Virus record (IMG/VR): IMGVR_UViG_3300047551_002350
Span: 1 to 33,668 of that record
Direction: 5' to 3' (one strand)
Source: a virus
DNA length: 33,668 nt
This document shows, one piece after another, positions 20,658 through 22,686 of this stretch. A program made the position numbers and the translations under genes. How positions within the stretch are numbered: position 1 is the stretch's first letter; every line of letters begins with the position of its first letter. Below the pieces are notes generated by a model, which was not told where the DNA came from, searched no databases, and was given only the letters and a program-made list of their open reading frames with translations.

Positions 20658-21201
20658 GCCTATTTACATTAGAGATTCTGGTTCTTGGAAGAATGTTAGT
20701 GGCGGTGGTGCTGCTGGTGACACATTTGAAGTTGGAACAAGGATTCTATTTATTCAAGCAAATGCACCAACAGGATGGGTCAAAGAATCTAATGTTGCAT
20801 ATAATAATGCAGCGTTAAGAATAGTTACTGGATCTGGTGGTGGAGTAGTTGATGGTAGTGATTTTACTGCAGTATTTGCTTCAAGAGCAGTTCCCTTACC
20901 ATATCACAATCACTCTTTTTCTGGAACAACTGGTGATGATTCACCAGATCACACTCACAATTATACTGGTGTAGAAATTACCCAGGAAACTTCTGGTGGA
21001 AGTTCAACTAGACCAAGAAGAGATGAAGCAAAAACAACCACTGGAGCAAGTAATCGTCACCAACACGGTTTTAGTGGAAGTACAAAATTGGATTCAGACC
21101 CCCCTCTTGACACCCAACCCCTGATCCCCTATAATATGGGGATAATCAGCGGAATACTGAATGAGCACTGCACAAGAAACTGTACAGGGTATTGTAATTG
21201 A
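20656..21201 (+). CDS. Short tail-collar-type fibre protein, probably 3'-truncated
   Basis: The protein has 181 residues. The N-terminus MPIYIRDSGSWKNVSGGGAA is followed by a collar-like fold: GTRILFIQANAPTGWVKESN, then DGSDFTAVFASRAVPLPYHN, paired His motifs (HNHSF, DHTHNY, RHQHGF) likely to bind metal as in T4 gp12-type tips. The C-terminal 30 residues (from about 150, PLIPYNMGIISGILNEHCTR) look foreign: this DNA is simultaneously a consensus sigma70-type promoter (21107-21135) and the first 41 bases of the next gene. I infer that an island joined here and removed the original C-terminus. Whether the protein still folds is unknown. Confidence 0.65.
   Translation: MPIYIRDSGSWKNVSGGGAAGDTFEVGTRILFIQANAPTGWVKESNVAYNNAALRIVTGSGGGVVDGSDFTAVFASRAVPLPYHNHSFSGTTGDDSPDHTHNYTGVEITQETSGGSSTRPRRDEAKTTTGASNRHQHGFSGSTKLDSDPPLDTQPLIPYNMGIISGILNEHCTRNCTGYCN
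21107..21135 (+). promoter_or_regulatory. Consensus sigma70-type promoter (TTGACA-17-TATAAT)
   Basis: TTGACA at 21107-21112 and TATAAT at 21130-21135 are separated by exactly 17 bases, with both boxes matching the consensus perfectly. Transcription would begin near 21142 and read the small gene at 21161. The promoter lies inside the 3' end of the collar gene. It suggests early expression by host RNA polymerase. Confidence 0.85.
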
Positions 21202-21361
21202 TGTCTGCACTCGCACCTTCCTTCTCCTGAGTGACCAAGGAAGCGAGCGTCTGGTAGAGTGTGATACCGTTCAAGAGTTTATGAATGTTCTTGAAGTTGT
21301 GACTAAAAATCTTGACTTTGAGCAAATTGAATACGCAGATCTTGCGGTTTATGGCGAATGA
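21161..21361 (+). CDS. Small early protein of unknown function, 66 aa
   Basis: I do not recognise a function. The protein begins MSTAQETVQGIVIDVCTRTF and is acidic, with an apparent beta-rich first half (FLLLSDQGSERLVECDTV) and a helical middle (QEFMNVLEVVTKNLDFEQ). It has the look of small conserved cyanophage early proteins. GGAA lies 9 bases before the ATG. It sits 19 bases downstream of the predicted start point of a consensus promoter and overlaps the 3' end of the collar gene by 41 bases. The next gene, a Phd-like antitoxin, follows after 31 bases. No toxin motif is seen. Confidence 0.7.
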   Translation: MSTAQETVQGIVIDVCTRTFLLLSDQGSERLVECDTVQEFMNVLEVVTKNLDFEQIEYADLAVYGE

Positions 21362-21392: not shown

Positions 21393-21566
21393 ATGGAAAT
21401 TTTCACGGTGGAAGAGTTTCAGGAAAGGTTCGATGAACTGATTGAAAGAGTAGAAGGTGGAGAGCACATAGGTATTGTGAATGAGAATGGAAAGGCAGTG
21501 GTTATGATGCCTGCCGATGATGATCTCATACGAATACACACTGAATTAAACAACGAAGCACCTTGA
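21393..21566 (+). CDS. Phd/YefM-like antitoxin without a toxin partner, 57 aa
   Basis: The protein begins MEIFTVEEFQERFDELIERV and continues EGGEHIGIVNENGKAVVMMP. This is the Phd/YefM fold pattern: a strand, an EF helix, a V-E-G-G-E turn, and two strands (I-G-I-V-N-E-N-G-K-A-V-V-M-M). It is shorter than typical Phd proteins (about 70-90 residues) and has little of the C-terminal toxin-binding tail. No toxin gene lies beside it: upstream is an unknown protein, downstream are tRNA genes. In a phage an orphan antitoxin could neutralise a host toxin or act as a DNA-binding repressor; both are inferences. Its stop codon is within the -35 box of the next promoter. Confidence 0.7.
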   Translation: MEIFTVEEFQERFDELIERVEGGEHIGIVNENGKAVVMMPADDDLIRIHTELNNEAP

Positions 21567-21591
21567 CAAAGAGTTCCAAATCCTCTATAAT
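21563..21591 (+). promoter_or_regulatory. Consensus sigma70-type promoter for the tRNA cluster
   Basis: TTGACA (21563-21568) and TATAAT (21586-21591) are both perfect and separated by 17 bases. The start would be near 21598, about 10 bases before tRNA-Ile. The -35 box overlaps the stop codon of the antitoxin-like gene. Confidence 0.88.
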
Positions 21592-21607
21592 TGATTTGGG
21601 TTTTTAT

Positions 21608-21679
21608 GGTTCTGTCGCCTATTGGTTAAGGCCGACACCTTATAAGTGTCTGAACGGAGTTCAATTCTCTGCAGAACCA
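21608..21679 (+). tRNA. tRNA-Ile(UAU)
   Basis: A complete cloverleaf is visible: acceptor GGTTCTG with CAGAACC, D stem GCCT/AGGC, anticodon stem GACAC/GTGTC with loop CTTATAA (anticodon TAT), T arm CGGAG-TTCAATT-CTCTG, discriminator A. CCA is not encoded. It reads AUA, a codon favoured in AT-rich phage genes and often rare in cyanobacterial hosts. Confidence 0.92.
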
Positions 21680-21683
21680 TCGT

Positions 21684-21757
21684 GCAGGTTTACCCATCTG
21701 GTTGAAGGGACCGATCTCATAAATCGGCAGAGGTCAGTTCAATCCTGACAACCTGCA
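21684..21757 (+). tRNA. tRNA with CAU anticodon (Met, or Ile2 if lysidine-modified)
   Basis: Acceptor GCAGGTT pairs with AACCTGC, anticodon stem CCGAT/ATCGG encloses CTCATAA (anticodon CAT), and the T arm is GTCAG-TTCAATC-CTGAC, discriminator A. There is no encoded CCA. The anticodon stem lacks the three G-C pairs of an initiator, so it is an elongator Met or an AUA-reading Ile2. The two cannot be separated by eye. Confidence 0.9.
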
Positions 21758-21759
21758 CT

Positions 21760-21839
21760 TGCCGTGGTTCAAAACTTATGATAGAATCCAGTGGGGCATC
21801 TATCAAACAGTTTTGATTTAGTCTCACAAACACACGGCA
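21760..21839 (+). ncRNA. Unidentified structured element with three nested stems
   Basis: Three nested perfect stems can be drawn: TGCCGTG (21760-21766) with CACGGCA (21833-21839); CAAAAC (21770-21775) with GTTTTG (21810-21815); and TGATAGA (21779-21785) with TCTATCA (21799-21805) around a 13-base loop. An asymmetric 17-base strand (21816-21832) lies on the 3' side. It has tRNA-like size and an acceptor-like outer stem but no T arm or anticodon arm. It is followed at once by a promoter and has no U-run, so it is not an ordinary terminator. No known family is recognised. Confidence 0.5.
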
Positions 21840-21842
21840 TTC

Positions 21843-21871
21843 TTGACCACTACAACTCTTTGAGTTATAAT
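21843..21871 (+). promoter_or_regulatory. Sigma70-type promoter for tRNA-Leu
   Basis: TTGACC (21843-21848) and TATAAT (21866-21871) are separated by 17 bases, with one mismatch from consensus. The start would be near 21878, 18 bases before the tRNA-Leu acceptor stem. Confidence 0.8.
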
Positions 21872-21895
21872 GGTCTTACAACTGAATACTTCTAT

Positions 21896-22178
21896 GGGGC
21901 GGTGGTGGAATCGGTAGACACACCAGACTTATGAAAATTGAGCCTCATTTGGGAAACCTTATGAGTGTCCCTCCTCAAATTCGGGGAAACCTTTAAAATG
22001 GCAATCCCGAGCCAAGCATCGTAAGATGAAGGTGTAGAGACTAGACGGGGAGCACCTAAACTGAAAAGTATGGTGAAGGTATAGTCCAGACCACAAACTC
22101 TATGAGGCGGCGAAAGTCGTAGTGGTAAGAAAATCTGTTGAGCGTATGCTCGTGCGAGTTCAAGTCTCGCTCGCCCTA
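21896..22178 (+). tRNA. tRNA-Leu(UAA) interrupted by a group I intron
   Basis: Exon 1 is 21896-21930 and exon 2 is 22130-22178. Joined, they give an 84-nt class II tRNA: acceptor GGGGCGG with TCGCCCT (two G-U pairs at the ends), the Leu-type D arm GTGGAATCGGTAGACAC, anticodon loop CTTAAAA (anticodon TAA), a long variable arm GAGC-GTAT-GCTC, T arm GCGAG-TTCAAGT-CTCGC, and discriminator A without CCA. The anticodon stem has four clean pairs (CAGA/TCTG), with a C-T mismatch at the top. It reads UUA, abundant in this AT-rich genome. The intron sits between U34 and A35, the same site as in cyanobacterial and plastid tRNA-Leu(UAA). Confidence 0.92.
21931..22129 (+). other. Group I intron (subgroup IC3-like), 199 nt, in tRNA-Leu
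   Basis: The intron begins after exon ...ACTT and ends with G (omega-G, 22129). P1 pairs exon CTT with GAG (21940-21942 region), giving the required U-G at the splice site. P4/Q-type GGCAATCCCGAGCC is at 22000-22013, a P5 hairpin CATC-GTAA-GATG at 22017-22028, the R element GTGTAGAGACTAGACGG at 22032-22048, and S as AAGGTATAGTCC at 22076-22087. P7 is GACTA (22039-22043) with TAGTC (22082-22086). A P9-region hairpin with a GAAA loop is at 22108-22119. All core elements are present and no reading frame lies inside. It is shorter than the Anabaena tRNA-Leu intron (about 250 nt). Confidence 0.92.
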
Positions 22179-22224: not shown

Positions 22225-22686
22225 ATGAATAGCAGATATACTTATAGCGAACAAGAACTTCGTGAAGCAGTAAAAAAATCAACTAGTATTAGGCAAGTTT
22301 TAGAAAAACTTGATATAGTTCCTGCTGGTGGGAATTACCAAACAACTAATAGAAGAATTAAAAAATTAAATATTGATATATCTCATTTTACTGGTCAAGC
22401 TTGGAACAGGGGAAAAGTTATTGGTCCAAAGAGACCTATTGAAGAATACTTGATAGAAAATTCTGTGGTTCAATCTTTTAAATTAAAAGGTCGTTTAATC
22501 GCAGAAGGTCTTAAAGAACACAAGTGTGAGTGCTGTGGCATAACTGAATGGAATGGAAAACCAGCACCGATTGAACTTGACCATATAAACGGCAACCATC
22601 ACGATAATCGTTTAGAAAATCTTCGTATCTTGTGCCCCAATTGTCACGCTCAAACAGATACTTACAGGGGTAAGAATAAAAAATAA
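22225..22686 (+). CDS. Free-standing HNH homing endonuclease
   Basis: The protein has 153 residues. The N-terminal 60 residues (YSEQELREAVKKSTSIRQVL) form a likely helical DNA-binding part seen in phage HNH enzymes. The C-terminal HNH/zinc domain has CECCG (Cys101, 103, 104), IELDHINGNHHDNRLENL (Asp119, His120, Asn residues) and CPNCHAQTD (Cys137, Cys140, His141). HNH enzymes of this type cut DNA to promote their own spread. It lies 46 bases after the intron-bearing tRNA-Leu and outside the intron. This suggests it cuts the uninterrupted tRNA-Leu site or nearby DNA and co-mobilises the intron. Its stop codon lies in a late-promoter-like AATAAATA. Confidence 0.88.
   Translation: MNSRYTYSEQELREAVKKSTSIRQVLEKLDIVPAGGNYQTTNRRIKKLNIDISHFTGQAWNRGKVIGPKRPIEEYLIENSVVQSFKLKGRLIAEGLKEHKCECCGITEWNGKPAPIELDHINGNHHDNRLENLRILCPNCHAQTDTYRGKNKK

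Follow-up and report, generated by a model that had tools for sequence, protein, structure and literature searches.

The window, a virus record of 33,668 bases analysed over its whole length, is a fragment of a cyanophage genome. On its plus strand, a promoter-like site at 21563-21591 (TTGACA, 17 nt, TATAAT; 12 of 12 consensus matches) precedes a tRNA-Ile (UAU) gene at 21607-21681 and a gene for a tRNA with a CAU anticodon, called Met, at 21684-21758, both detected by ARAGORN and Rfam. The second tRNA adjoins the element that is the subject of this work, a putative structured small RNA on the same strand at 21759-21839. A further promoter-like site at 21843-21871 (TTGACC, 17 nt, TATAAT; 11 of 12 matches) belongs to the next unit, and the boundaries originally described for the element, tRNA(CAU) on one side and a promoter on the other, are thus borne out. 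Transcription from the promoter-like site at 21563-21591 would cover both tRNA genes and the element; no intrinsic terminator was found at the element.

Just upstream of the tRNA operon promoter lies an orphan Phd/YefM-like antitoxin ORF of 57 aa (21393-21566, plus strand), which matches the PHROG 375 family 'Phd-like antitoxin' (E 1.9e-12) and Pfam PhdYeFM_antitox (E 8.8e-7), the latter at 29.1 bits, below the 29.8 cut-off. A Phd-like antitoxin ORF occupies the corresponding place in phage DSL-LC03, and a small DUF7294 ORF (21161-21361; E 3e-19) lies upstream of the antitoxin ORF in the window. The next tRNA after the element, tRNA-Leu(UAA) at 21893-22178, contains a group I intron (match to RF00028 at 21921-22106, 63 bits) that the original prediction did not mention. 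Comparison with an intron-less relative (L023) places the insertion between U34 and A35, which we take to be the site of the cyanobacterial tRNA-Leu intron. The HNH endonuclease ORF directly after the intron-bearing tRNA (22225-22686; PHROG 10822, E 2.6e-53) is possibly the homing endonuclease of this intron.

The element contains three perfect nested stems of 7, 6 and 7 bp, as originally noted: P1 pairs 21760-21766 with 21833-21839, P2 pairs 21770-21775 with 21810-21815, and P3 pairs 21779-21785 with 21799-21805. Such nesting is indeed far above chance. Of 20,000 sequences shuffled to the same composition, 5 had three perfect stems, each 6 bp or longer, nested in one another; among 6,686 other 80-mers taken from the window there were 3, from two spots. 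The predicted fold has an energy of -26.5 kcal/mol; 200 sequences shuffled with their dinucleotides preserved averaged -13.6, and none was equally stable (z -4.39).

Relatives are found in cyanophage tRNA clusters, where the original prediction had suggested that homologues be sought. BLAST detects the element at 88-93% identity in three isolated cyanomyoviruses, DSL-LC03, S-RIM32 and one S-RIM8 isolate, which belong to different genera or lineages within the Kyanoviridae, and pattern scans of IMG/VR add some 90 further stretches. The whole element is present at every inspected relative site. Twelve stretches returned by a single pattern scan of genome contigs were rejected as chance matches, having irregular spacing and no stems. 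The covariance model R1, of 81 positions, scores the window element at 108.8 bits (E 1.5e-30) and finds a single strong copy in each of the 53 matching records searched whole. Weak second matches of 15-17 bits occur in L001, G034 and G041, with two of the 53 records carrying an extra match of 17 bits.

An alignment of 44 distinct element sequences, ungapped or nearly so, provides the main evidence for an RNA structure. Across these sequences 95% of cells are paired, compared with 30-41% when the partner strand is slid, and the covariation score was reached by none of 500 shuffles. Changes on both sides of a pair affect 10 pairs and 66 cells and are spread over all three stems: two pairs in P1 (98.4% of cells paired), four of the six in P2 and four of the seven in P3. 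P2, for example, is CAAAAC/GTTTTG in the window, CAGATT/AATCTG in S-RIM32 and CAGGTT/AACCTG in L021, and in L108 P2 and P3 are fused into one long helix. The original prediction had named base-pair covariation beforehand as a point on which it should fall or stand, and P1, P2 and P3 all display the compensatory changes by which a structured non-coding RNA is recognised.

The fold appears to be completed by a 5-bp pseudoknot, absent from the original prediction, between GUGGG in the apical loop (21791-21795) and CUCAC in the joining strand (21823-21827). Of all registers between loop and joining strand, only this one (element positions 33-37 with 65-69) pairs at 5 bp in all 44 sequences. In two of its pairs one partner varies while pairing is retained; no pair has changed on both sides. 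Since the core of the pseudoknot never varies, its inclusion in the fold is likely but is not proven by covariation. Other invariant features of the alignment are UGAUUUAG (21814-21821), which comprises the end of P2 and the start of the joining strand, and the terminal A of the P1 3' strand.

Comparison with Rfam, also proposed originally, matched no family to the element either at the gathering threshold or at E<=10, and no earlier description was found in the literature searched. The pairing and its conservation make it very probable that the element represents a new family of structured RNA genes of cyanophage tRNA arrays.

How the element is placed in these arrays was examined over 57 distinct contexts. 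It lies directly after the 3' end of a tRNA in 42 of them, and the preceding tRNA may be any of eight types (Met, Tyr, Leu, Lys, Asn, Glu, Ile or Ser). In nine others the element has its own promoter, TTGACN-18-TAAAAT, ending 4-5 nt upstream of position 1; the predicted start site is then position 1 itself, which in these cases is always A instead of T. A T4-late-like ATAAATA box precedes the element in L045, L047 and L049. Downstream, a tRNA follows within 9 nt in 17 contexts and a -35-like TTGAC within 10 nt in 25, together 42 of the 57, while the other inspected contexts lead into other RNAs. The neighbouring tRNAs encode no CCA. In its layout the element follows the pattern of the tRNA genes that make up a modular array. 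The original suggestion of a small RNA co-transcribed with, and processed from, the tRNA cluster fits the placement against tRNAs, but the separate promoter in some relatives indicates that the RNA does not in every case derive from the transcript of a tRNA.

Modularity is also seen within the species S-RIM8. In one S-RIM8 record (KX349286), 328 bp separate tRNA-Thr from tRNA-Ala, compared with 3 bp in the other S-RIM8 records listed, and the flanks of this cassette are identical to theirs. In the cassette a structured stretch is accompanied by a gene resembling tRNA-Leu, by the element and by a second RNA, a hairpin; S-RIM32 carries the element and this second RNA in a different order. The comparison indicates that the element has been gained or lost within the species, although the gain is not creditable to the element alone, since the cassette carries further RNAs. 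A second S-RIM8 isolate with the same host strain name (WH8101) has no element, and no correlation with host strain is visible among the S-RIM8 isolates.

Other small RNAs share these arrays. Rfam identifies an orphan abiF antitoxin RNA (RF03085) in the array of S-CREM1 and in those of several phages that have the element; 13 of the 68 records tested contain one. Examples lying 4-7 nt before a tRNA are L053:1872-1908, L055:3358-3394, L057:991-1027, L080:4158-4194, L084:944-980, L102:9083-9119, L106:13535-13571, L123:2532-2568 and L124:1078-1114. When the scan was widened, 101 distinct contexts of abiF were collected, and in 90 of them the RNA sits 2-8 nt before a tRNA. No gene for an Abi_2 toxin was found in the 103 records searched (these 68 and 35 picked for abiF), many of which are fragments, and the element was not found in the 35. 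The slot 3' of the element holds an abiF RNA in several relatives and unrelated hairpin RNAs in others.

Further RNAs were observed in the course of these scans. Promoter-led hairpin RNAs lie between the element and tRNA-Arg, the abiF slot in relatives, in L043, L056, L063, L079 and L104. A second unannotated hairpin RNA of ~54 nt, GATAGAGGGTAAGC...GCTTACTCCATCT (L019:5083-5136, L018:4876-4924, L121:4001-4056), is located in tRNA arrays of S-RIM8, S-RIM32, S-SRM01, S-CREM1 and S-SZBM1. Phage-borne permuted tmRNAs of the cyanobacterial type (RF01851, RF04321) lie near tRNA arrays on the minus strand at L054:1498-1750 and L083:4804-5056.

The tRNA-like placement, the promoters of its own, the single copy per phage and the pattern of gain and loss all argue that the element is a small-RNA gene, and we infer that the ends of its product are set by tRNA processing or by a promoter. 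With strong confidence, then, the element can be regarded as the gene of a probably pseudoknotted small RNA of ~80 nt residing in the tRNA arrays of T4-like cyanophages. Its RNA would be transcribed together with the tRNAs. Because the adjoining tRNAs have no encoded CCA, cleavage by tRNase Z behind the last base of the upstream tRNA, a step taken from established tRNA biology, would create the 5' end of the element. The 3' end would arise either when RNase P cleaves the next tRNA or by exonuclease trimming back to P1. Where there is no upstream tRNA, the promoter would initiate at the same base, position 1.

What the mature RNA does is a more tentative matter. Our favoured single guess, which we hold with rather less than even confidence, is that it acts in trans as a decoy or antitoxin mimic by binding and blocking a host protein, either a toxin that targets RNA or an effector of abortive infection. 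The orphan abiF RNAs of such arrays presumably act likewise. This guess is prompted by those RNAs, by the lack of an Abi_2 toxin gene in the records searched, by the orphan Phd-like ORF beside the operon and by two precedents: abiF RNA binds AbiF directly and neutralises the toxin (PMC12373285), and phage TE evades ToxIN by means of a pseudo-ToxI RNA (PMC5086642). The link to antitoxins is one of guilt by association, since neither abiF nor any Rfam family resembles the element, and the absence of the element from the 35 records picked for abiF speaks against it. Taken as a whole, the statement that combines RNA gene, processing and decoy is possible but falls short of even odds.

A regulatory RNA of another kind would fit some of the same observations. 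A trans-acting small RNA could use its conserved single-stranded parts, AUUUAG and the joining strand rich in CAC, to base-pair with mRNAs of the host or the phage, and both the conserved unpaired stretches and the promoter found in some phages are compatible with this. However, the strongest conservation lies mostly in the pseudoknot and joining core and not in a free seed, the fold is compact and an intrinsic terminator is absent, making such a regulator unlikely. Action in cis, as a spacer or processing element that cuts or protects the upstream tRNA or stabilises transcripts ending there, could explain the 0-nt spacing to that tRNA and the promoter or tRNA immediately after the element. 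It is harder to reconcile with the nine of 57 contexts that have a promoter at the 5' end instead of a tRNA, with eight different types of preceding tRNA, or with a single copy per phage despite many tRNAs, most tRNA pairs having no element between them, and we consider it quite improbable.

The compact, probably pseudoknotted fold and its invariant core could also suit a metabolite-binding RNA. The riboswitch candidates manA and wcaG occur in or near cyanophage tRNA arrays, and the manA RNA of S-CREM1 lies exactly between tRNA-Leu and tRNA-Asn. Yet no protein gene lies directly downstream of the element, which is followed by a tRNA, a promoter or another RNA, and a ligand sensor is improbable enough to be given little weight. 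Still less credible is a heavily remodelled tRNA, or a tRNA mimic that engages tRNA enzymes, even though the size, the 7-bp terminal stem and the invariant 3'-terminal A are tRNA-like and P1 plus the probable pseudoknot would give 12 bp, as do an acceptor and T arm. ARAGORN gives no score and Rfam no tRNA score at E<=10, there is no CCA, anticodon arm or T arm, and in L108 P2 and P3 form one long helix; ARAGORN and Rfam agree with the original observation that tRNA identity is lacking, whereas the remodelled tRNA entertained alongside it is not supported, the conserved core being a different one with a probable pseudoknot.

Size, probable pseudoknot and location at a cleavage point might suggest a self-cleaving ribozyme that releases the tRNA end, but this is very improbable given that no Rfam ribozyme matches, that promoter-led copies require no 5' cleavage and that a cyclic phosphate would prevent CCA addition to tRNAs in which it is not encoded. 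A DNA element (promoter, terminator or recombination site) can be virtually dismissed, since the 9 of 12 promoter match within the element (TTGCCG, 17 nt, TAGAAT) loses its hexamers in L108 while RNA pairing is kept by compensatory changes, and no terminator was found.

If the element encodes a trans-acting decoy, a broader and more doubtful reading can be put forward as a joint claim, namely that the tRNA arrays of cyanophages serve as banks in which orphan antitoxin RNAs are kept. These would include abiF, the element and several other small RNA families, which would be swapped in and out to neutralise different RNA-targeting defences of the host and would be freed by the tRNA maturation enzymes. 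Were this true, the element would be an antitoxin mimic for an undescribed RNA-controlled toxin of picocyanobacteria. A conserved non-tRNA RNA that obeys tRNA-like layout rules near orphan antitoxin RNAs suggests that the arrays are also platforms from which RNAs directed against host defences are expressed. Since some S-RIM8 isolates have the cassette and others lack it, near-identical phages are at hand in which the array hypothesis can be tested.

Among known RNA classes, tRNA (RF00005) is separated from the element by the searches themselves, as ARAGORN and cmscan detect both adjacent tRNAs and not the element. The position of a riboswitch or other cis-regulator, in the 5' leader of a protein gene, is not that of the element, whose flanks are tRNAs, promoters or other RNAs. 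The manA (RF01745) and wcaG (RF01761) RNAs are likewise structured cyanophage RNAs, and the S-CREM1 manA also lies between two tRNAs, but they have other folds and are proposed cis-regulators. The rnaC and rnaD genes of T4 (species 1 and 2 stable RNAs) likewise specify small structured RNAs of unassigned function inside a T4-like tRNA cluster; they differ in being longer (139 and 119 nt) and from a coliphage, and R1 has no match in the T4 tRNA region. The type III antitoxins ToxI and CptI are pseudoknotted RNAs, as the element probably is, and the pseudo-ToxI of phage TE is an earlier case of a host toxin neutralised by an RNA from a phage (PMC5086642). However, ToxI is an H-type pseudoknot borne on repeats, produced beside its toxin gene and cleaved by that toxin. 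The class is marked by tandem repeats adjoining the gene of an endoribonuclease toxin, whereas each record here has one 81-nt unit, which has a closing stem and is not accompanied by a toxin. The abiF RNA is a 37-nt hairpin motif placed before a tRNA and matches the element in neither sequence nor structure, its 37-position covariance model (RF03085) finding nothing in the window record, nor in the element when hits up to E<=10 are admitted. It is nevertheless, like the element, a short structured RNA without a toxin gene that adjoins tRNAs in cyanophage arrays, in which the two appear as interchangeable modules.
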